46,348 nucleotides of DNA from Candidatus Cloacimonadota bacterium (GTDB lineage: Bacteria > Cloacimonadota > Cloacimonadia > Cloacimonadales > JAMOQM01). The notes beneath the pieces are model-generated. The model was not told the DNA's origin. It made no database searches and worked only from the letters and a program-made list of their open reading frames with translations. The DNA is taken from the NCBI GenBank assembly GCA_027064005.1, contig JAMOQM010000067.1, positions 1-46,348 on the forward strand, read 5' to 3'. Of this stretch, positions 2,879 through 46,015 are shown piece by piece; the stretch's first letter is position 1; every line of letters begins with the position of its first letter. The position numbers were made by a program, and so were the translations under genes.

Positions 2879-4153
2879 TTAGAAATTAAATGAAATTTTT
2901 GCTAAGTAATAATTCCAATTTTTACTTAGATCATTTTCAGGAACATTTTCTAAAACTTCTGAGGAACTCAAGAATACGCCGTCAACAGAATGTGCTTCAG
3001 CTTTAATTGACCAATTAAAAGAAATGTCATATTTTAAAGTCAAGCCATAATCATATCTGTGTTTTTGCCAATCGGGAATCATATCGGTGATGTCTGTAAT
3101 TGGTTGTCCAACAGCTAATAAAGATTTTTCGTTAACTAATTCTGAAGAAGAATATGAAGCTGTTGCAGACATTTTTTCCATAAATTGATAAGTTAAGTTT
3201 GTGTAAAACATTCTGTCCTTTCTATCAAAAATTTTACCAATATTATTATTTACGACAGAAATTTGATTTGTTTGTTCGCCATATTCACTTGCCAATGTGA
3301 AAGGCCCAACAATATATTCCAAAGAACCTAAATATCTATGAGGAATTTTCATGTCAGCTTCAAGTATTAACGGTAAAACTGTGCCGTCCGGAGTTTGAAG
3401 ATTTACTCTTGGTGTTGTAAGTTTAGCGTTAATTTTATAGTATGAACCACCTAATCTTAATGATGAAATGGGTGTGTTCCAAAATACTGTTCCACCATAA
3501 AAATCATTTACTCTTAAATTAACACTGTTTACAGAAGCATTAATATCTCCGGTTAATTGGTATAAAAATGAATTCGCAACTTTTTTATAAATTTTTAAAG
3601 GTATATCTGATTGGTCAAAATTCATGTTTCCGATAAAAGCATTGTAATCCATATCACCGGCATTTCCTAACGGTACGTTTCCATAAATATCCCCACCTTG
3701 GAAAGCTACTAAAAAACTGCGATATTGTTCATCATAAATGCTTTGTGAAAGATAAACTGTTGGGCGTAAAAAATCAATATCTCTGATTTCATTATAAAGT
3801 CCCATCGGTGTCTTAATTTTACCAAATCTAAAACCGAGCCAGTCTTTATAGTGATAATCAGCAAAAGCCCAGTCAAGTTTTGTTGTGTTATTTCCGGCAT
3901 CGCCAAAATCGCGTGAAAGGAATTGCATTCCTAATGATAATTTTGATGATAAATGGGTCGAGAAAGTTATTCCTGCTTCGTTGATTTCAGATGAACCGTT
4001 TTTTGAATCCGGTACAAGATAGTCATTTCCTGATGAATAGATATAGCCTTGGCTTACAAATCCGTGAACAGATAGAGCATTTCCCATATCAATTCCGAAT
4101 AAAGTTGTTATCCCCATAACAACTAAAATAATTGCGAGTAACTGTTTTTTCAT
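2879..4153 (-). CDS. Outer-membrane porin, beta-barrel
   Basis: A signal peptide (MKKQLLAIILVVMGITTLFG) precedes an approximately 400-residue protein of alternating hydrophobic strands rich in aromatic residues and ending in phenylalanine (KISFNF), as expected for a barrel inserted by BamA. The segment GFRFGKIKTPMGLYNE, followed by LRPTVYLSQSIYDEQYR, resembles the OprO/OprP and DcaP-like porin group. I chose the ATG at 4153 rather than one 24 bases upstream because GGAGG (4158-4163 on the complementary strand) sits just before it and a typical signal peptide starts there. It is followed closely by the PstS-like protein and the chemoreceptor, which fits a solute uptake and sensing operon. Substrate is unknown. 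Confidence 0.85.
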   Translation of the reverse strand: MKKQLLAIILVVMGITTLFGIDMGNALSVHGFVSQGYIYSSGNDYLVPDSKNGSSEINEAGITFSTHLSSKLSLGMQFLSRDFGDAGNNTTKLDWAFADYHYKDWLGFRFGKIKTPMGLYNEIRDIDFLRPTVYLSQSIYDEQYRSFLVAFQGGDIYGNVPLGNAGDMDYNAFIGNMNFDQSDIPLKIYKKVANSFLYQLTGDINASVNSVNLRVNDFYGGTVFWNTPISSLRLGGSYYKINAKLTTPRVNLQTPDGTVLPLILEADMKIPHRYLGSLEYIVGPFTLASEYGEQTNQISVVNNNIGKIFDRKDRMFYTNLTYQFMEKMSATASYSSSELVNEKSLLAVGQPITDITDMIPDWQKHRYDYGLTLKYDISFNWSIKAEAHSVDGVFLSSSEVLENVPENDLSKNWNYYLAKISFNF

Positions 4154-4195
4154 TATTACCTCCATGAAAAATTTCAAGTTTTTTTACTTATTATC

Positions 4196-4223
4196 AATAT
4201 ATTAAATTATCTTTTTTTAACAA
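4196..4223 (-). promoter_or_regulatory. Possible promoter for the porin operon
   Basis: On the minus strand a TTGTTA (-35-like) and TATATT (-10-like) are 16 bases apart in the end of the methyltransferase gene and the gap before the porin. This would transcribe porin, binding protein and chemoreceptor separately from the methyltransferase. It is a consensus match only, in AT-rich DNA where chance matches are frequent. Confidence 0.35.
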
Positions 4224-5373
4224 GTTTTTTTTTAAATTCGGCAAAAATAATTTGATGAATATCATTCATTTTTAGGATAAACATTGTTGTTTTCGTGTTT
4301 CCTTTTAATTTTATTTTTTTTCTAAATTCTTCTACGGATTCGGAAAATCCGCGAGTTTTGATATCCAAGATTCCAATTTTATTTTCTTTAAGATAGCGTT
4401 TTAGTTTTTTCAAATTGTAGTTAAAAAAAGTTGTTACTTCATAAGTTTTTACAAAATCATTTTGAAGCAAATTTTGAGAAGTTAAGAGAGCCAAATGTTT
4501 ATCGATTAATTTGCAATCTAAAATATGACCAAGATGTTTAACCAATCCGGCTCTAATAATTGCCGAGTCAGGTTCAAATAAAAATTTGTCTATTTGTGAA
4601 ATACCAATATCATCATTTTCAGAATCATTTATCTCTAAATTTTGCGGTAATAATATCGCCTTTTTTAAAATTGATTCCGTCGCCAAATCTCCAAAACACA
4701 GCAAAATTTCTTTCAATTCTCCATTTTCCGAGATAAATTCAAAAGTGTGATTTCCCGGGATTTTCATAGATTTATAATCAATTACCGGTGAAAGTTTTAT
4801 TGCTATATTGGGATATTTAGCAAGCATTTTAAAAATATCGGATATTGGAGGAGAGTAACTTTCCGGCTCAATAATTCGTTTTGCACCGTCTCTTCTATCC
4901 GGATCAATAAAAATTGCCTCCACATCTTCATTAAAGTCCTGTGCTTTTTCATTAAGGAAAGTGATATTAGTTTTATCTCGGTTGTTCCATTTTGTGCATT
5001 CAAGAGTTTTTTTATCCAAATCTACAGCATAAATTTTTTCTTTATTTTTTGATAAGTTTTGTAAATCAGAACCGATTCCACAGCAAATATCTGCTAAAGA
5101 TTTATATTTTGAAAATTTCATAGCGTGATATTCCGATAAACATTTGGATGATGATTGCTGAATTCCCTTCTCAGTAAGTAAAAGATTTTCCGGATGAGAA
5201 AATTTTTTGGTAGCTTTTTGACGAAGTTTTTTTTGAGTTAAAATTTCTTTTACAGGAAAATTGGGGTATTTTGAATTTATTTTCTGAATTTCATTAATGT
5301 TATTCAAATCGGTTTTTAAGATTTCTTGGTAAATTTCCGGATTCTTTTCTATAAAGGTTATTATCTTTTTCAT
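4207..5373 (-). CDS. Class I SAM-dependent methyltransferase with C-terminal THUMP-like domain
   Basis: The 388-residue protein has a helical N-terminal region (about 1-75), a Rossmann-type methyltransferase core and a C-terminal ~100-residue domain. The SAM-binding motif I is LADICCGIGSD (near residues 93-103) and the catalytic-loop motif is FIDPDRRDGAKR. DPDRR here is typical of the bacterial and archaeal methyltransferases that carry the THUMP-like domain. The substrate is probably an RNA or small metabolite and is not established. The frame could begin 36 or 15 bases upstream, but AAGAGA precedes the ATG at 5373 and a KKIITFIEK start is plausible. It lies upstream of the porin operon in the same direction with a 53-base gap. 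Confidence 0.85.
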   Translation of the reverse strand: MKKIITFIEKNPEIYQEILKTDLNNINEIQKINSKYPNFPVKEILTQKKLRQKATKKFSHPENLLLTEKGIQQSSSKCLSEYHAMKFSKYKSLADICCGIGSDLQNLSKNKEKIYAVDLDKKTLECTKWNNRDKTNITFLNEKAQDFNEDVEAIFIDPDRRDGAKRIIEPESYSPPISDIFKMLAKYPNIAIKLSPVIDYKSMKIPGNHTFEFISENGELKEILLCFGDLATESILKKAILLPQNLEINDSENDDIGISQIDKFLFEPDSAIIRAGLVKHLGHILDCKLIDKHLALLTSQNLLQNDFVKTYEVTTFFNYNLKKLKRYLKENKIGILDIKTRGFSESVEEFRKKIKLKGNTKTTMFILKMNDIHQIIFAEFKKKLVKKR

Positions 5374-37424: not shown

Positions 37425-39395
37425 ATGGTAATTTCATCAATAATATTTATCGTATTAGCTTTATTATTATCTTATCTTTATTATCGAAAGACAACGCCGA
37501 ATATTAGTTTTTCAAAAAAAATATTTCTTATTTCATTAAGGACAATAACTTATTTTGTCCTTTTTTTGTTGATTTACAGCCCGATTTACAACAATATCAG
37601 AAAAAAGAAAATCCCCGAAAATATAATAATTTTGAACGATGATTCAAATAGTGTTAATTTAAAAAAGTTAAACAAACAAACAATTTTGCGAGATAGTTTA
37701 ATTAAAAAAATATCAGATAGAGGATATTCAATAAAAAGCTTTGATTTTTCCGACGGACTTAAAGGAAATCCCAAAAACACCCTTCTTATCAAAACTTTAC
37801 AACAATTAAAAAACAAACATTTATTAAAGTATTCAAAATCTATAATTTTAAATTCGGACGGATATTTTCACGATTCCGATTTAACAACTTTGCAGAATTT
37901 TCCAATCCCGATATTTCCTATTCTAAGAATTAAAAATTCTCCTTTGCCGGATCTTAAAATTGAAGACTTAAAAATCAATGATGAAGTTTTTCGAGATGAA
38001 AAAACGCCTATAAAGATTAAGATAAAATCCACTCATTTTTCAGGAAAAGCAGAGGCAATAATAAATTATGATTCTAAAGAAATTAGAAAAAACATTTTTT
38101 TGGATTCTTTAAAAATTAATGAGATTAACCTAAATGCCAAATTTTCCAAAATTGGAATTCAAAAAATATCGATAGAAATTAGGGGAAACAATTTAAAAAA
38201 AGAAATCAATTTTTACAATAACCAATTGATTAGGAATATAGTAGTAAAAAATAATAGAAACAAAGTTATCGTTGTGAGTGATGAATTAAATTGGGATGCA
38301 GCTTATATTATAAAATCTATTTCAGGTGAAAAACGCTGGAAATCTAAATTTTATCTTTTTAGAAACGGAAATTTCTATTTATCTCAAAAGCGTAAATCAC
38401 TCCCGAAAATGCTTGAAACAGCAAATCTTTTGGTAATTGTCCAAACTCACAAATTGCAATTTACAAAACAGCAAATTACCTTAATTACAAATTTTGTAAA
38501 AAATGGCGGCGGTTTACTTTTTCAAGGAAAATTTAATCCTGAACTGAAAAAGATTTTACCGATCAAAACTTTCTATTCTCAGGAAAATATTGATATTATG
38601 ACTTGGACGAATAATATTGCGGACTATTCCATTTATTCCAATTTAAAAAATGCGGATATTCCACCCATTTCATTTTGGGAAATTGAGCCTAAAATTAATG
38701 TTAAAATTTTAGCAAGATCAAATAATTATCCCACCATAATTTCATCAAAATATGCAAATGGAAAAATTCTGTATCTCAATTGTCTAAATTTGTGGAAATG
38801 GGAATTATCAGGTAAAAATCAATCATATTTTAATTTTATGAATCACACCATTAAATGGCTTGGTTCAAAAAATTCTAAATTATTTGAAGCAACATTACCA
38901 AAATATGACTTCGATTTGAATGAATCTATTCAAATTGGCTTGGAAGCTGTTGATCAAAACCTTAATCCGAGAGAAAATATTGAAGCAAAAATCAGCGTAT
39001 TTAATTCTAAAAAGAAATTAGTATTTTCTGATTTTTTCACAAAGAAAAACCAACTCTGGAAAATTCAAATACCTTCATTACCAAAAGATTCCTACCACTT
39101 TGAAGTAATTGAAGAAAAAACAGGCTTACGCTCCAAAGGCGATTTTGTGGTAAATGATAATAATTTAGAATATAAAGATGTTAATTGGAATGAATCTGCT
39201 CTTCAATATATATCAGAAATTACAAATGGAAAAATTATTAGAAAAGTATCCGATTTAGATTTGACAAAACCTCACATTAGTGAGGAAACATCTCTCATCG
39301 AAATATATTTATATAAAAAATGGTATTTTTTCTTAATTTTTATTTTCACTTTTACTCTTGAATTATTTATCAGAAAAAGGAACGGTTTACTTTGA
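37425..39395 (+). CDS. Membrane protein with VWA-like and glutamine-amidotransferase-like regions
   Basis: The 656-residue protein has two N-terminal membrane helices (about 2-19 and 33-53) and one at the C-terminus (about 630-650), so the large middle part probably lies in the periplasm. A VWA-like region starts at IPENIIILNDDSNS, where DDSNS (72-76) fits the DxSxS metal-site pattern, and contains IILNSDGYF. A beta-sandwich region follows (about 175-270). A segment like the class I amidotransferase fold comes next (ANLLVIVQTHKLQ, LITNFVKNGGGLLFQGKF) without a catalytic Cys. This architecture recurs in FCB membrane proteins of the Bat/VWA kind with unknown function. It starts one base after the barrel gene. 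Confidence 0.65.
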   Translation: MVISSIIFIVLALLLSYLYYRKTTPNISFSKKIFLISLRTITYFVLFLLIYSPIYNNIRKKKIPENIIILNDDSNSVNLKKLNKQTILRDSLIKKISDRGYSIKSFDFSDGLKGNPKNTLLIKTLQQLKNKHLLKYSKSIILNSDGYFHDSDLTTLQNFPIPIFPILRIKNSPLPDLKIEDLKINDEVFRDEKTPIKIKIKSTHFSGKAEAIINYDSKEIRKNIFLDSLKINEINLNAKFSKIGIQKISIEIRGNNLKKEINFYNNQLIRNIVVKNNRNKVIVVSDELNWDAAYIIKSISGEKRWKSKFYLFRNGNFYLSQKRKSLPKMLETANLLVIVQTHKLQFTKQQITLITNFVKNGGGLLFQGKFNPELKKILPIKTFYSQENIDIMTWTNNIADYSIYSNLKNADIPPISFWEIEPKINVKILARSNNYPTIISSKYANGKILYLNCLNLWKWELSGKNQSYFNFMNHTIKWLGSKNSKLFEATLPKYDFDLNESIQIGLEAVDQNLNPRENIEAKISVFNSKKKLVFSDFFTKKNQLWKIQIPSLPKDSYHFEVIEEKTGLRSKGDFVVNDNNLEYKDVNWNESALQYISEITNGKIIRKVSDLDLTKPHISEETSLIEIYLYKKWYFFLIFIFTFTLELFIRKRNGLL

Positions 39396-40945
39396 GAAAA
39401 TACCTTGCAAAAAACATCGCCGTCGATGTTAATTCAAATCTTGATTTTAAAAAAATATTAAACAAAAAATTTAGATTTCCAAAAGATGTTAAATATGAAA
39501 TATCAATATTGAGAAAATCGATTGATGCGAGAAAGAAAAATAGATTAAAATGGAATTTTACCTTAATTTTAGAAACAAATAATGTCCTGAAAACTCAAAA
39601 CGATTTAACGGAATATCCTGCAAAAGATTTTACTCTAACTCCTTCCCAAAAAATCAAATCTAAAAATCCCTTTATTATCGGAGCTGGTCCGGCCGGATTA
39701 TTTGCAGCCTTAATTTTAGTTGAAAACGGATTTGAACCATATATTTTTGAAAAAGGCGAACCGATTGATAACCGAATTAAAACCGTAAATGATTTTTGGC
39801 AAAAAGGAATTCTCAACCCAAAATCCAATGTTCAATTTGGAGAAGGTGGAGCCGGTGCGTTTTCAGATGGAAAATTAACAGCAAGAAGCAGAAATGTTTA
39901 TGCTGAAAAAGTTTTCCGATATTTAATTAAATTCGGGGCAGATCCTTCCATAATTTACGAAGCTCTCCCTCATCTCGGTACGGATGGATTGCACAAAATA
40001 GTGATAAATATCCGCAAATATCTTATCTCAAAAGGAACAAAATTCTTTTGGAATCATGAATTGGATGATATTCAGCTTAAAGGAAATAAAATTGATTTCG
40101 TAAAAATAAATCGGGTAAAATATTCTCCGGAATTGATATTTTTAGCTATTGGAAATGCTGCCAGAAATACCTTTAAACTTCTTTCTGAGAACGGAATAGC
40201 CATTCAATCAAAGCCATTTTCAGTAGGATTTAGAATTGAGCATAAAAGAGAATTTATCAATAAAGAACTATATGGAGCAAAAACCGATTTTTCTAAAGTC
40301 GGAGAAGCAAGTTATCGTTTAACATCTAAAATCGGGAATCGAGGAGTTTACTCATTTTGTATGTGTCCGGGGGGATTTGTTGTGGCAGCTTCATCTGAAA
40401 AAAAATCCGTGGTTGTGAATGGAATGAGTTATTTGAAGCGAGATAATGAATTTTCTAACTCCGCAATTGTTTGCAGTGTAGGAGAAACTGATTTTGGTAA
40501 CCAACCTTTTTCAGGGATAGAATTTCAAAAAAAATGGGAAAATCGTGCTTTTAATTTTGAATTCCCCTATTTTGCCCCGTCTCAAAAAGTTGCAGATTTT
40601 ATGAATAATAATATTACCCAAAAACTGCCGAAAAGTTCATACAAACCCGGTATTTATTCTCATAATCTTAATGAATTTTACACAAAACAAATTATTGATT
40701 CTCTCAAAATCGGCTTAAAAAATTTTGATAAAAAAATACCGGGATTTATTAAAAACGGTAATTTACTTGGAGTAGAAACCAGAACTTCATCTCCAATCAG
40801 AATTGTTAGAGATAAAGAAAATTTGAATTCCTTATCTGCCAAGAATTTGTTTCCAATTGGAGAAGGTGCAGGATATGCCGGTGGGATTATCAGCAGTGCT
40901 TCGGATGGAGTAAAAGCTGCTTCAAAATTTTTATTCTCCAAATAA
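39392..40945 (+). CDS. FAD-dependent dehydrogenase, COG2509 type
   Basis: The 517-residue protein has an N-terminal ~85-residue alpha/beta domain and then a dinucleotide-binding Rossmann motif FIIGAGPAGLFAALIL (about 95-110). GEPIDNRIKTVNDFWQKG, NVQFGEGGAGAFSDGKLT and the C-terminal FAD motif LFPIGEGAGYAGGIISSASD with GVKAA follow. This is the pattern of the uncharacterised FAD-dependent dehydrogenases of COG2509, predicted oxidoreductases of unknown substrate. It starts with TTG, sharing 4 bases with the previous gene, and is followed by the AhpD-GAF fusion after 36 bases. Confidence 0.9.
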   Translation: MRKYLAKNIAVDVNSNLDFKKILNKKFRFPKDVKYEISILRKSIDARKKNRLKWNFTLILETNNVLKTQNDLTEYPAKDFTLTPSQKIKSKNPFIIGAGPAGLFAALILVENGFEPYIFEKGEPIDNRIKTVNDFWQKGILNPKSNVQFGEGGAGAFSDGKLTARSRNVYAEKVFRYLIKFGADPSIIYEALPHLGTDGLHKIVINIRKYLISKGTKFFWNHELDDIQLKGNKIDFVKINRVKYSPELIFLAIGNAARNTFKLLSENGIAIQSKPFSVGFRIEHKREFINKELYGAKTDFSKVGEASYRLTSKIGNRGVYSFCMCPGGFVVAASSEKKSVVVNGMSYLKRDNEFSNSAIVCSVGETDFGNQPFSGIEFQKKWENRAFNFEFPYFAPSQKVADFMNNNITQKLPKSSYKPGIYSHNLNEFYTKQIIDSLKIGLKNFDKKIPGFIKNGNLLGVETRTSSPIRIVRDKENLNSLSAKNLFPIGEGAGYAGGIISSASDGVKAASKFLFSK

Positions 40946-40981: not shown

Positions 40982-41797
40982 ATGGAAAATGATGCTTTTT
41001 TAAAAGAAAGGTTAAAACTTGATGAACAAGTGATGGGAATTGCTGATAAAAATATCAAACGATTTTACAATTTGGATTCTACTGTCTATAAAAACGGTGT
41101 TTTATCCGCTTTAACAAAAGAGATGTTAGGACTTGTTTCTTCCTTGGTTTTACGGTGTGAAGACTGCATCCGATACCATATCAATCAATGTTTTAATTTA
41201 GGTATAAGCGATGAGGAATTGTCCGAAATTTTTTCGGTAGGTTTAATTGTGGGTGGTTCAATAGTTATTCCTCATTTACGAAAAGCGACCGGAACTTGGA
41301 ATGAGTTGAAAGTAAATGCCAAAAACAATTTTGACAAAAAATCGACCTTAACATTTTTACAAAACCAAATTGATATTATCACCAAATCATCTGATTCAAA
41401 AGAAAAAAAAATGCAAGAAATTGTAGTTTTATTGGATAGATTTATTCCTTATTATGATTGGACAGGATTTTATCTGTCTGATTCTGAACAAAAAAAATTG
41501 GTGCTTGGAAAATTTGTCGGTGAACCAACCGATCATAAAATTATCCCGTTTGGAAAAGGAATTTGCGGTCAATCTGCCGAAACAAAAGAAGTTACTTTAG
41601 TTGATGATGTTTTAGCTGAAGAAAATTATCTTGTTTGCTCGCTCAAAGTTAAATCAGAAATTGTTGTACCAATTTTATCAGATACAAATATTTTTTTAGG
41701 AGAGTTGGATATTGATTCTCATAAAAAAGAAGCATTTACACAAGAAGATGAAATTTTTTTGAAAGAAATTTGTCAAAAAATAGCAAAAATATTCTAA
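40982..41797 (+). CDS. AhpD-like CxxC domain fused to an fRMsr-like GAF domain
   Basis: The 271-residue soluble protein has two parts. Residues 1-115 form a carboxymuconolactone decarboxylase/AhpD-like helical domain with LRCEDCIRYH (Cys59, Cys62, His66), the redox CxxC...H motif of AhpD. Residues 120-271 form a GAF domain of the free methionine-(R)-sulfoxide reductase kind: YYDWTGFYL, IPFGKGICGQSA (Cys195), NYLVCSLKVKSEIVVPIL (Cys219) and LGELDIDSHKKEAF. The 24-residue Cys195-Cys219 spacing equals that of two redox cysteines of E. coli fRMsr; the third is replaced by His185. A likely job is reduction of free methionine-R-sulfoxide with the AhpD part passing electrons; this is inference. AAAGGAG precedes the start. 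Confidence 0.85.
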   Translation: MENDAFLKERLKLDEQVMGIADKNIKRFYNLDSTVYKNGVLSALTKEMLGLVSSLVLRCEDCIRYHINQCFNLGISDEELSEIFSVGLIVGGSIVIPHLRKATGTWNELKVNAKNNFDKKSTLTFLQNQIDIITKSSDSKEKKMQEIVVLLDRFIPYYDWTGFYLSDSEQKKLVLGKFVGEPTDHKIIPFGKGICGQSAETKEVTLVDDVLAEENYLVCSLKVKSEIVVPILSDTNIFLGELDIDSHKKEAFTQEDEIFLKEICQKIAKIF

Positions 41798-41940: not shown

Positions 41941-42380
41941 TATGCAGGAGAGAGATTCCGCCCGATAAATCGGGAATTGAGGATCTGTATTTTTAGAATG
42001 GTTTTCTTTTTTTTTTGTCATCCTTCCCGACGAATCGGGAGATTGGGGATCTGTATTACGAGAATGGTTTTCTTTTTTTGTCATCCTCAACTCGATTGGG
42101 GATCTGTATTACGATGATAGTGTGCAAAAGAGAGATTCCTCCCGATGCTCGGGGGGAATGACAAAGGAGGGGAAAGGAAAAAAGAAGATTCCCGCTTTCG
42201 TGAGAATGACAAAATGGACGGGAATAACAACGGAAATGAGAATGACAAAATGGCCGGGAATGGCAATTTCCTTCTCTTAATTCTCCGAGACTATTCATTA
42301 AACAATTCCTTTTTAGCACCAATTCCCACGAGTATAAAAGTAAAAAAGTGAACGCAAATTTCAGAGGGAGCAAAAAAATA
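41941..42380. repeat. Repeat-rich non-coding stretch
   Basis: It contains the same hairpin family as the window's right end. A first hairpin (CCCGATAAATCGGG) lies near 41961-41974. Units beginning TGTCATCC start at 42016 and 42079, each with a GATCTGTAT...TGGTTTTC spacer and T-run. ATTCCTCCCGA / TCGGGGGGAAT forms a hairpin near 42135-42160. Two 36-base direct repeats starting GAGAATGACAAAATGG lie at 42202 and 42238. Open frames here on either strand are by-products of the repeats. The stretch from about 42274 shows nothing recognisable. Confidence 0.7.
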
Positions 42381-42381
42381 T

Positions 42382-42410
42382 TTGACAACTTATTATCAAA
42401 AAAACATATT
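42382..42410 (+). promoter_or_regulatory. Promoter candidate for the beta-propeller lipoprotein
   Basis: TTGACA and CATATT are separated by 17 bases, a good vegetative-type promoter, placed about 105 bases before the start codon. It lies between the repeat stretch and the gene and is not part of the truncated copy at 41819-41940. Confidence 0.5.
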
Positions 42411-42515
42411 AATTTTATTAAATTTAAGGGGGAGGGACGATTTTGTGTCATTATTGTTTTGGAAAAAATTTTAAATATACGGGTAATCCTAAAAAAATAG
42501 CTAAGGAGGTATGTG

Positions 42516-43613
42516 ATGAAGCGAGGCACAATTATGAGATTTATAATTCATAATAAAACTTTGTTGTTTTTGGTACTATTAATTGTTGTCAGTTGTTCGA
42601 AGAAACAAGAATTATTACAGTCGGATTTATATCTGACCCAAAAAACAATAATAAATCCTTTTGAAAACGGATTAAAAACAATAACAAATTATAATGTAAA
42701 AAACAATAAAATATATATCAAAGATAGTATAGAAAATACAGTTTTTGTCTATAGTTTGGATGGTAATTTTATTAGTAAATTTGGTAAAAAAGGTAAGGGA
42801 CCCGGAGAATTAAGCTATTTATCATCTTTTTCTATTCTAAGGAAAAACTATCTCTTATTAGATACTGTTAAGAGGAAGTTTATTGAATATAATAAAAATT
42901 ACAATTATGTAAAAGAATATAATTTTCCTCCGGATATCAATATAGAATATGCCGAATTTTATGATTATGATTCATTTATTTATTCATTTATTTTGCAAAA
43001 ACAATATAAAGAAAATACTTTACGAGATTCTTATTCTCTCTATAAATTTTCTTTAAATTATCAAAATCCTGAGAAAATATTTGATATTTATTCGTATTCT
43101 TCCCAACCAAGGACTTATGATCGATTTCATAATAAACTTGTTTGGGCAATAAGTACCGAAAATAATCGAGTGGCAACTTGTTTGTCCGGTAATTATAGTA
43201 ATTTCAATATAGAAATTCGTAACTTAGAAGGTGAAAAATTAAATCACTTGGATTATAAATTTAAACCTATTAAATTTTCTAAAGAATCTATTAATAGAAT
43301 CAAAGAAAAATATAAATTTGTCAAATCTCATTACCATATAAATAAATTTGGGGAAATACCAAAATATTATAACTCGGTTAATTTTATGGAGTATGATGAA
43401 AAAGGTAATTTATGGGTGTTTAGTTATACTGATGAATATTTTCGTGCGGTTTTTACAATATTTGACAAATCATTAAAGGAAATCGGTAAGATATTTATTT
43501 CAACTCATGCTAATTATTTTAGGATATGTGACAATTCTTTAGTTTTGATCGATTCGCGAGATAAAGACAATCAGAGATTAATTGTATATAAGATTAATTA
43601 TAAAGATAAATAA
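42516..43613 (+). CDS. Lipoprotein with 6-bladed beta-propeller-like repeats
   Basis: The 365-residue protein has a long N-region and a hydrophobic stretch ending in the lipobox VVSC (Cys27). The mature part has blade-like units, notably VFVYSLDGNFISKFGKKGKG followed by PGEL, a signature of 6-bladed propeller lipoproteins common in Bacteroidota and relatives. Later blades are YNYVKEYNFP, FNIEIRNLEGEKLNHLDYKF and AVFTIFDKSLKEIGKIF. I favour the ATG at 42516, 6 bases after AAGGAGG; a GTG at 42513 and an ATG at 42534 are also possible. A dead partial copy lies 670 bases upstream. No enzyme motif was seen, and the ligand or partner is unknown. Confidence 0.78.
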   Translation: MKRGTIMRFIIHNKTLLFLVLLIVVSCSKKQELLQSDLYLTQKTIINPFENGLKTITNYNVKNNKIYIKDSIENTVFVYSLDGNFISKFGKKGKGPGELSYLSSFSILRKNYLLLDTVKRKFIEYNKNYNYVKEYNFPPDINIEYAEFYDYDSFIYSFILQKQYKENTLRDSYSLYKFSLNYQNPEKIFDIYSYSSQPRTYDRFHNKLVWAISTENNRVATCLSGNYSNFNIEIRNLEGEKLNHLDYKFKPIKFSKESINRIKEKYKFVKSHYHINKFGEIPKYYNSVNFMEYDEKGNLWVFSYTDEYFRAVFTIFDKSLKEIGKIFISTHANYFRICDNSLVLIDSRDKDNQRLIVYKINYKDK

Positions 43614-43621
43614 ATTTGCAA

Positions 43622-46015
43622 ATGTTTTCCTTAATCACTGACATCGGATCTACTACCACAAAATCATATTTATGTGATAAAAGCGGTAAAGTATTAAGCA
43701 TTGCCAAAGTTCCCACGACAGTTGAGAAGCCTTTTGAAGATGTGTCTATCGGTTTTTTTAATGCCTTAAAAGAGATTGAAAAATCAAAAAACATAATCCT
43801 TTTTTCCGACGGTAAATTTTCCCCGGCTGTTGATGTCTATTTTACAAGTTCTGCAGGTGGAGGTTTACAAGTTACAGTTGTTGGATTAACCGAGCTATAT
43901 TCTGCAAAGATTGGAACAAAAGCAGCACTTGGTTCCGGAGCAATAATAAGTAATATCATTTGCGGAGGTGATAATAGAAGCGAACAGAAAAAAATAGCGG
44001 AGTTAAAGAAATCTTCTCCTGACTTAATTCTTTTTGCCGGAGGTGCGGATTCCGAATTTATTAGTATTGTTTGTAGAATGGCTAAGTTTATCGAAGAAGC
44101 AGATGTGAAAAATAAATTTAAGAAAAGCAATACGCCGATAATTTTTAGCGGTAATATTTATGCAATTCCAGATGTGAAAAAAATATTAAAAAACTATCCT
44201 CTCTTTATTGAAGAAAATATCTGTAATAACTTCAAATACAGAGGTGAAAATCTTCAAAAAAGAGTATTGGAGATTTTTCAAAAACATGTAATGCACGATG
44301 CTCCCGGATATCCGAAAATTGTAGAACTTACGAGAAATAAAATCCTTCCCACTCCCATAGCCGTAAGCAAAGCAATGAGTTTATTAGGAAAAGAAAAAAA
44401 TATCCTGCTTTTTGATATTGGTGGAGCAACAACTGATGTTTATACTTTTTATAACGGTAAATTTTTTCGTTCCGTATCAGCCAATATCGGAATGAGTTAC
44501 AGTATTGTAAATACTCTTTTGGAATGTGGAATCGACAACATAAAAAAATATCTGACAGCGAACATTAAAGATAATGAAATTTTAAATTATATTGGCCATA
44601 AATACTTAAATCCAACTCAATTACCGAACAATAAAAAGGAAGAATTAATAGAAGTCTCAATTGCCATAAATGCCATAAACAAGGCAATAGAAAACCATTT
44701 TAAGCTTTATAAAAAAGAATTTGACGAGATATTATCACAAAGACCTTGGTTAGATATTTTTCTGCAACGAAATAAAGAAATGGAATTTGATATTGTTATC
44801 GGTTCGGGAGGAATAATATCCAATAATAATGTTTTTTGTAGAAAAATGATTTTTGCAAATATAAACATAAAGCATTCAAAATCTCTTTTTGATAAAGATT
44901 TCCTTTTCCCTCATATTGGAATAACAAGCGATAAGGATAAAGATTTTGCGATGAGTTTGTTAAAAAACTCATTACATGAAATTGACTTTAAGGGAAATAT
45001 TTCACAAAAAATATTTTTGGGTAATTTGTCGCATAATGAATCCTTATTTGAAAATAATCCAAAAGTAACGATAAATATAGTTCCCGAAGCAATTGGAAAA
45101 ATAAATAAAAGAAAAGTAAAATCGGGTGAGATAATTTTTGAAACAAGCAGAAAAGTATTTAAAAAATACTATATTTCATTACCGGTTAATGATGACTTTG
45201 AATTAATCTATCAAACATCCAAAAAGAAATTGAAAGAAAAGGACTTAATTTTATCTTTTAAGAAGCATATTTATTATTTTAAATTTTATGCTCCATTTGA
45301 TTGTGAGATTATAGAAATTAATAAATATCAAATAGTTATTTCGGAATTGAGAACCCTCGATGAAATTGAAAATTATCCTTTGGCAAAAAGCAGATTTGAA
45401 TTAAAAGAATTGAAAAAAATAATAAATCAACCAACAAAACATTATAAAGATAAGCTTGTTAACGGAATTTTCTATTACAATGATATTCTCTTATCTTCAC
45501 AAGTTTACAAACGGTTTATTTTATCTCCAATGACTGGAACAATAACAAAATTTAATTTTGATGATTTAACAATATCAATGAAACGTCTGATAGAACGAAC
45601 CAAAATAACAACTTTTGCGAGTGGGGAAATCACTGAAATAAATGACGATACAATTAAAATAAAAACAATCGGGACAAAAGTAAAATGCAAGTTTGGATTT
45701 GGGAAATCTCAGTTTGCTACTATCGGAAAAAATGCAACCTTTATAAGAAATGAATCTGATTTCAATTCTTTTATGGAAAGTAGTTTTTCAATAGCAATTA
45801 GCTTTAATTTACCGTACAAAAAGTTTTTGATTCTCTCCGAAAAAGAAAATAAATCAATAATCATTATTAATGATTTTGCAGAATTTATTGTTTCGGATTT
45901 GTTTGAGGATATAATTGAAAAATTAATGAAAAATAGAATATACTGCTCTGTTAAAACACGAATGAAATCAGGAGTGGAAAGACCGTTTATTTATTATGAA
46001 AATAAAAATGAATAA
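43622..46015 (+). CDS. MutL/GlmL-like ASKHA ATPase, long form
   Basis: The protein has about 797 residues. The first ~440 match the MutL/GlmL family, ASKHA ATPases encoded with adenosylcobalamin-dependent mutases such as glutamate mutase and ornithine or lysine aminomutases, thought to repair or reactivate the enzyme. Motifs are SLITDIGSTTTKSYL (phosphate 1), FTSSAGGGLQVTVVGLTELY, LILFAGGADSEFIS, PIIFSGN, KNILLFDIGGATTDVYTF (phosphate 2) and VIGSGGIISNN. A further ~350 residues, beta-rich and including LILSFKKHIYYFKFYAPFDC, extend beyond usual GlmL length. No mutase gene lies in the window. The frame also allows a TTG 6 bases upstream; the ribosome site is weak. The ribosome-site weakness and the 8-base gap suggest coupling to the lipoprotein gene. 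Confidence 0.85.
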   Translation: MFSLITDIGSTTTKSYLCDKSGKVLSIAKVPTTVEKPFEDVSIGFFNALKEIEKSKNIILFSDGKFSPAVDVYFTSSAGGGLQVTVVGLTELYSAKIGTKAALGSGAIISNIICGGDNRSEQKKIAELKKSSPDLILFAGGADSEFISIVCRMAKFIEEADVKNKFKKSNTPIIFSGNIYAIPDVKKILKNYPLFIEENICNNFKYRGENLQKRVLEIFQKHVMHDAPGYPKIVELTRNKILPTPIAVSKAMSLLGKEKNILLFDIGGATTDVYTFYNGKFFRSVSANIGMSYSIVNTLLECGIDNIKKYLTANIKDNEILNYIGHKYLNPTQLPNNKKEELIEVSIAINAINKAIENHFKLYKKEFDEILSQRPWLDIFLQRNKEMEFDIVIGSGGIISNNNVFCRKMIFANINIKHSKSLFDKDFLFPHIGITSDKDKDFAMSLLKNSLHEIDFKGNISQKIFLGNLSHNESLFENNPKVTINIVPEAIGKINKRKVKSGEIIFETSRKVFKKYYISLPVNDDFELIYQTSKKKLKEKDLILSFKKHIYYFKFYAPFDCEIIEINKYQIVISELRTLDEIENYPLAKSRFELKELKKIINQPTKHYKDKLVNGIFYYNDILLSSQVYKRFILSPMTGTITKFNFDDLTISMKRLIERTKITTFASGEITEINDDTIKIKTIGTKVKCKFGFGKSQFATIGKNATFIRNESDFNSFMESSFSIAISFNLPYKKFLILSEKENKSIIIINDFAEFIVSDLFEDIIEKLMKNRIYCSVKTRMKSGVERPFIYYENKNE

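Follow-up and report, generated by a model that had tools for sequence, protein, structure and literature searches.

The closest described relative of the catalytic part of the protein considered here is Ta0848 (PDB 4mmn), a type II free methionine-(R)-sulfoxide reductase (fRMsr) from Thermoplasma; in this enzyme Cys84 acts as the nucleophile, Cys60, though needed, forms no disulfide with Cys84, and a separate thiol has been proposed to resolve the sulfenic acid (PMC6211008). Thioredoxin is accepted by the Thermoplasma enzyme in vitro (PMC6211008); the re-reduction of two-cysteine fRMsrs is only partly known. Among the known dithiol donors of cysteine enzymes is AhpD, which is itself reduced by lipoyl proteins and passes electrons on to AhpC; in C. 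glutamicum OsmC is an acceptor too. AhpD also has a weak peroxidase activity of its own (PMC8945050). Methionine sulfoxide reductases joined to an electron supply have been described in two forms. PilB from Neisseria (Trx-like - MsrA - MsrB) carries its own dithiol donor, by which MsrB is reduced intramolecularly (PMC6210582), and an archaeal fusion of MsrB with a ThyX-like flavin domain has a proposed built-in electron supply (PMC6211008). A link between CMD/AhpD proteins and fRMsr was not found in the literature searched.

The window, meaning the whole stretch of DNA that was analysed (46,348 nucleotides from a Candidatus Cloacimonadota bacterium, contig JAMOQM010000067.1), encodes a protein, P0001, in which these two families are joined (Table 1). 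The sequence-only reading had placed an AhpD-type CxxC domain and an fRMsr-like GAF domain in one protein, and this is borne out by Pfam, by sequence matches in the PDB and by Foldseek. The same uninterrupted two-domain protein (274 aa, 49-53% identity to P0001) is encoded in two further genomes, G008 and G020, which rules out an assembly artefact as its source; the fusion is confirmed. The AlphaFold2 model of P0001, built from 32 window and locus proteins, has a mean pLDDT of 93.8 and a pTM of 0.73, with helices assigned by DSSP at residues 77-115, 119-135 and 140-154. No signal peptide is apparent in P0001, and Pfam and Foldseek find CMD and GAF only, with no thioredoxin-fold donor, MsrA or MsrB domain.

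The N-terminal part of P0001 matches PF02627 (CMD) over residues 28-102 (E 5.7e-12, 45.9 bits against a Pfam cut-off of 23), and residues 1-116 match TM1620 from Thermotoga maritima (1vke/1p8c) in a PDB sequence search (E 6e-34), with 52-57% identity to the TM1620 chains across the domain by Foldseek against the PDB. TM1620 has the same CxxC...His arrangement but is a stand-alone protein, whereas the CMD of P0001 is fused to an fRMsr; we know of no tested function for TM1620. The redox motif picked out earlier from the sequence, Cys59-x2-Cys62...His66, was confirmed as Cys59-Glu-Asp-Cys62 with His66, with Glu47 lying upstream; this quartet is identical in 52/52 aligned homologues, and M. tuberculosis AhpD has the same spacing. 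With a fold match above the cut-off and the Glu, CxxC and His all present, the domain is assigned to the CMD/AhpD-like family; equivalence to full-length AhpD is no part of this claim. AhpD from M. tuberculosis and C. glutamicum is a CMD-fold, lipoyl-dependent CxxC electron donor to a cysteine enzyme (PMC8945050), however its acceptors are the peroxidases AhpC and OsmC, while the acceptor proposed for P0001 is a sulfoxide reductase, fused or adjacent.

The C-terminal part matches the GAF_2 and GAF families of Pfam over residues 162-268 (E 8e-8 and 6e-7); the best PDB sequence match for residues ~142-270 is Ta0848 (E about 2e-21 to 6e-21), followed by yeast YKL069W and by the Neisseria, Staphylococcus and E. 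coli (YebR) proteins, all fRMsr-type GAFs. Foldseek against the PDB also places fRMsrs first, with 4mmn superposing at 0.9-1.0 Å over 131 columns at 39% identity. P0001 and 4mmn have the motif FVGE-x-TDH in common, its TDH replacing the third cysteine, and both essential cysteines are in register; Ta0848 differs in that its chain of 149 residues stands alone and lacks a donor domain, whereas P0001 has the N-terminal CMD dithiol domain. Cys195 and Cys219, which the sequence-only reading had likened to an fRMsr pair, do stand 24 residues apart and align with the 4mmn cysteines; both are kept in 45/45 aligned GAFs. Position 185 is His in 40 of these and Cys in five, the five being three-cysteine type I enzymes from the window's own phylum (L027-L031). 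The substitution of His185 for the third fRMsr cysteine was thus seen correctly, but it is a type II hallmark, present in 40/40 type II relatives, and its interpretation as a peculiarity of P0001 is ruled out. Type I enzymes have three conserved cysteines with an intrachain disulfide between the catalytic and resolving residues; P0001 has His185 at the third site, and by every sequence feature tested its GAF domain is classed as a type II fRMsr. A Cys195-Cys219 disulfide, earlier suggested as the resolving step, is contradicted by the characterised type II enzyme; since the equivalent Thermoplasma pair forms no disulfide and a separate thiol is proposed, such a bond is unlikely in P0001, and needing a separate thiol is a property of the class (PMC6211008).

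Table 1. Features of the CMD/AhpD - type II fRMsr fusion, its upstream neighbour and the adjacent gene pairs of other genomes (window positions unless a locus is named)
Feature	Location	Strand	Basis or remark
CMD/AhpD - type II fRMsr fusion, P0001	40982..41797	+	uninterrupted ORF, 271 codons; full-length homologues in G008, G020
N-terminal CMD/AhpD-like domain, TM1620 type, residues 1-116	40982..41329	+	PF02627, 1vke/1p8c, Foldseek
Glu47, CMD active-site residue	41120..41122	+	52/52 homologues
Cys59-Glu-Asp-Cys62, redox CxxC	41156..41167	+	both Cys in 52/52 CMD homologues
His66 of CxxC-x3-His motif	41177..41179	+	52/52 homologues
Helical connector, residues ~112-156	41315..41449	+	between domains; takes in N-terminal helices of fRMsr domain
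C-terminal type II fRMsr GAF, residues 117-271 (homology from ~142)	41330..41794	+	4mmn sequence and fold
His185, site of type I third Cys	41534..41536	+	His 40/40 type II, Cys 5/5 type I
Cys195, matching Ta Cys60; needed, not resolving	41564..41566	+	45/45; 4mmn alignment
Cys219, matching Ta Cys84; predicted catalytic nucleophile	41636..41638	+	45/45; 4mmn alignment; role from PMC6211008
FAD-dependent protein	39392..40945	+	PF21688, E 4e-66; 36 bp upstream of fusion
G113 pair, window's phylum	L052: CMD 3784-4137, GAF 4127-4597		adjacent, same strand
G112 pair, window's phylum	L053		CMD adjacent before type II gene, same strand
G125, G376 and G366 pairs	L081, L082 and L083		CMD adjacent before type II gene, same strand
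G182 pair	L080		CMD before type II gene, ~160 bp apart, same strand
G364 pair	L098		CMD before type II gene, 8-bp overlap, same strand
G387 pair	L110		CMD adjacent before type II gene, same strand

From its sequence, P0001 is considered a real redox module of two parts, conserved in other genomes, in which a CMD domain has been added to a type II fRMsr. It is reasonably probable that the CMD serves the reductase as a built-in dithiol donor. Free Met-R-sulfoxide would bind in the GAF pocket and be attacked by Cys219, releasing methionine and leaving Cys219 as a sulfenic acid. As P0001 lacks the third cysteine found in type I enzymes, a thiol from the CxxC of the CMD (Cys59/Cys62), on the same or a neighbouring chain, is proposed to resolve the sulfenic acid; a mixed disulfide would form, then a CMD disulfide. 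The latter would be re-reduced by a donor in the cell, which could be thioredoxin or a dihydrolipoyl protein and possibly the neighbouring flavoprotein. Catalysis and direct thiol transfer between the domains are what we infer here; homology argues for the Cys219 step, and resolution by the CMD is suggested by the lack of a resolving cysteine in the class together with a recurrent linkage specific to type II. The design resembles that of PilB, however the PilB donor has the thioredoxin fold and its MsrA and MsrB act in the periplasm on proteins, while P0001 combines a CMD fold with an fRMsr for free methionine sulfoxide, both parts coming from other families; P0001 is not a thioredoxin-Msr fusion, yet it may work like PilB. 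The archaeal MsrB fusion differs in its flavin-based donor, its MsrB and its unrelated domains. The CMD - type II fRMsr pairing is not categorically new.

Full-length fusions were found in three genomes of two families (G000, G008 and G020) among about 125 genomes searched in the window's phylum, and separate CMD and type II genes lie adjacent, CMD first and on the same strand, in eight genomes; the gene ends overlap in all adjacent pairs but that of G182. By its open-frame figure G182 seemed to hold a fusion outside the window's phylum, but its two genes are separated by a stop codon and ~160 bp and are counted as adjacent. The phyla of G182, G376/G387, G366 and G125 (their phylum listings taking in 1, 3, 7 and 1 genomes) exclude one another and G364, so the linked cases, fused and adjacent, span six phyla. 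Two-domain matches were absent from the plasmids searched, and the scan of genome contigs gave one relative, from WOR-3 (L002), whose GAF has no CMD. The sequence-only reading had offered fusion homologues without the CxxC or the GAF cysteines as grounds for refutation; it was not refuted, as none of these residues varies among the aligned sequences.

Both a type II GAF and a TM1620-like CMD are encoded in 17 genomes; the two are linked in 11 (3 fused, 8 adjacent; 10/16 if G364, whose CMD was recognised only via its neighbour, is left out) and unlinked in six (G198, G316, G317, G339, G380 and G382). Amongst genomes of the window's phylum with a type I GAF and a CMD, linkage is seen in 0/9, all nine GAFs having three cysteines; the contrast with type II gives a Fisher p of 0.0024, uncorrected for relatedness, for a type I comparison confined to one phylum and with draft contigs that can break links. 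Linked proteins are scattered in the CMD tree, with 7 label changes and rejection of a single clade (AU p 0.035); in the GAF tree the data are compatible with a single clade of the three fusions (AU p 0.55). At the thresholds used, at least 22 of 40 type II genomes have no such CMD, so other donors must serve there and a CMD partner is not obligatory. The idea that the AhpD part donates electrons to the fRMsr nonetheless gains support, and is strengthened by the recurrent pairing of separate genes in other phyla. A wider proposal, that type II fRMsrs in several bacterial phyla have TM1620-type CMD proteins as their dedicated electron donors, the two forming a module for recycling methionine sulfoxide with the missing resolving thiol supplied in trans or fused in cis, is put forward tentatively and may well not hold.

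Gene order in one family (f13) is conserved as rsmI-like, tRNA nucleotidyltransferase-like, DUF3795, reductase and ROK-like kinase, names that apart from DUF3795 we assign by reading; within f13, G112 and G113 alone have the CMD placed after DUF3795 and before the reductase. A 65-residue CMD remnant lacking the CxxC adjoins the reductase in G226 (L091). A second, longer CMD protein (sestrin-like, PF02627) precedes the CMD - fRMsr pair at L081 6159-7569 (G125) and L091 5921-7353 (G226). Other type II GAFs have different surroundings; that of L002 570-1865 (WOR-3 bacterium 4484_100) is followed by C-terminal repeats and membrane segments (weak DUF4013), and those of L084 7411-8397 (G316) and L085 6895-7842 (G174) are fused to another N-terminal domain of ~160 residues. 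The L084 and L085 N-terminal parts look alike and have no confident Pfam match; this domain is possibly another partner of type II fRMsr. At L086 6718-7617 (G317) the type II fRMsr gene starts right after the end of an OsmC-family gene, OsmC being itself reportedly reduced by AhpD in C. glutamicum (PMC8945050).

Searches of the window's genome, which is rated 100% complete, detected no MsrA and no MsrB; two clear and three weaker thioredoxin matches are present, and no second fRMsr or second TM1620-like CMD was found at E 1e-3. The FAD-dependent protein noted beforehand does lie directly upstream of the fusion; the fusions of G008 and G020 have no such neighbour, although a distant relative stands beside the G178 gene. 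Other genes, which we take to encode a Nif3-like protein and a cation-efflux transporter, stand upstream of the G008 and G020 fusions, with a SpoU-type methylase downstream. At L094 4983-6888 (G178) a member of the FAD family (26% identity) directly precedes a type II fRMsr gene that stands alone, an arrangement like that of the window; two such cases out of roughly forty amount to no more than a lead, and the upstream protein as an electron source for P0001, although we infer it as a candidate, is possible but unproven. Elsewhere in the window, the gap after the fusion (42056-42529), when read on the minus strand, gives recurring CHS-x-FCHS/HESGN words and is probably an intergenic repeat, not a gene. 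A 799-aa GlmL/MutL-family protein (43616-46015; PF13941 E 2e-81, residues 6-453) has a C-terminal extension of ~345 residues beyond the family coverage. A 656-aa protein (37425-39395), whose two ends carry hydrophobic segments and whose Pfam hits all fall below threshold, abuts a PorV-like gene on its upstream side and the FAD-dependent gene on its downstream side.

The main rival to the donor reading is that P0001 unites two independent oxidative-stress activities, the CMD acting as an AhpD-like peroxidase or as a reductase of AhpC/OsmC and the GAF as a thioredoxin-dependent fRMsr, with the linkage reflecting co-expression only. This is considered unlikely, though well short of negligible; AhpD is itself a weak peroxidase besides serving AhpC and OsmC (PMC8945050), and an OsmC gene stands before one type II gene (L086). 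The use of thioredoxin by a type II enzyme in vitro (PMC6211008), the thioredoxins of this genome and the six genomes that keep the genes apart all count against the donor reading. Shared stress expression, however, would be expected equally for type I, yet none of the nine type I genomes with a CMD is linked, linkage being specific to the class that lacks the third cysteine; co-expression explains the adjacency but not this contrast.

Many GAF domains are sensors, and the GAF of P0001 could be a redox or ligand sensor derived from an fRMsr, with the CMD as peroxide-reactive input or output. In two proteins (L084, L085) a type II GAF follows another N-terminal domain, and in a third (L002) it is attached to a membrane segment, however P0001 keeps all residues essential in the characterised enzyme along with close fold agreement (0.9-1.0 Å), Pfam detects no signalling domain in it, whether a kinase, a DNA-binding domain or another, and a genome without MsrA and MsrB has the more need of an enzyme; the peroxide-sensing variant raised by the sequence-only reading is graded weak, and a sensor is highly improbable. 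The six chains held in crystals of the TM1620 homologue (1vke, 1p8c) are compatible with a ring assembly, but a CMD that is mainly an oligomerisation scaffold with incidental cysteines has just as slim a chance, the redox quartet being invariant in 52/52 homologues and the separate CMD of eight genomes being able to scaffold only by binding.

If the CMD is the thiol that has been proposed for the Thermoplasma enzyme, as the donor reading holds, TM1620-type CMD proteins would gain a function and AhpD-like donors would extend beyond peroxidases; P0001 would also provide a compact two-domain protein on which the resolution of the sulfenic acid is directly measurable. Because its genome appears to have neither MsrA nor MsrB, P0001 may be the main thiol-based route by which this bacterium recovers oxidised methionine.
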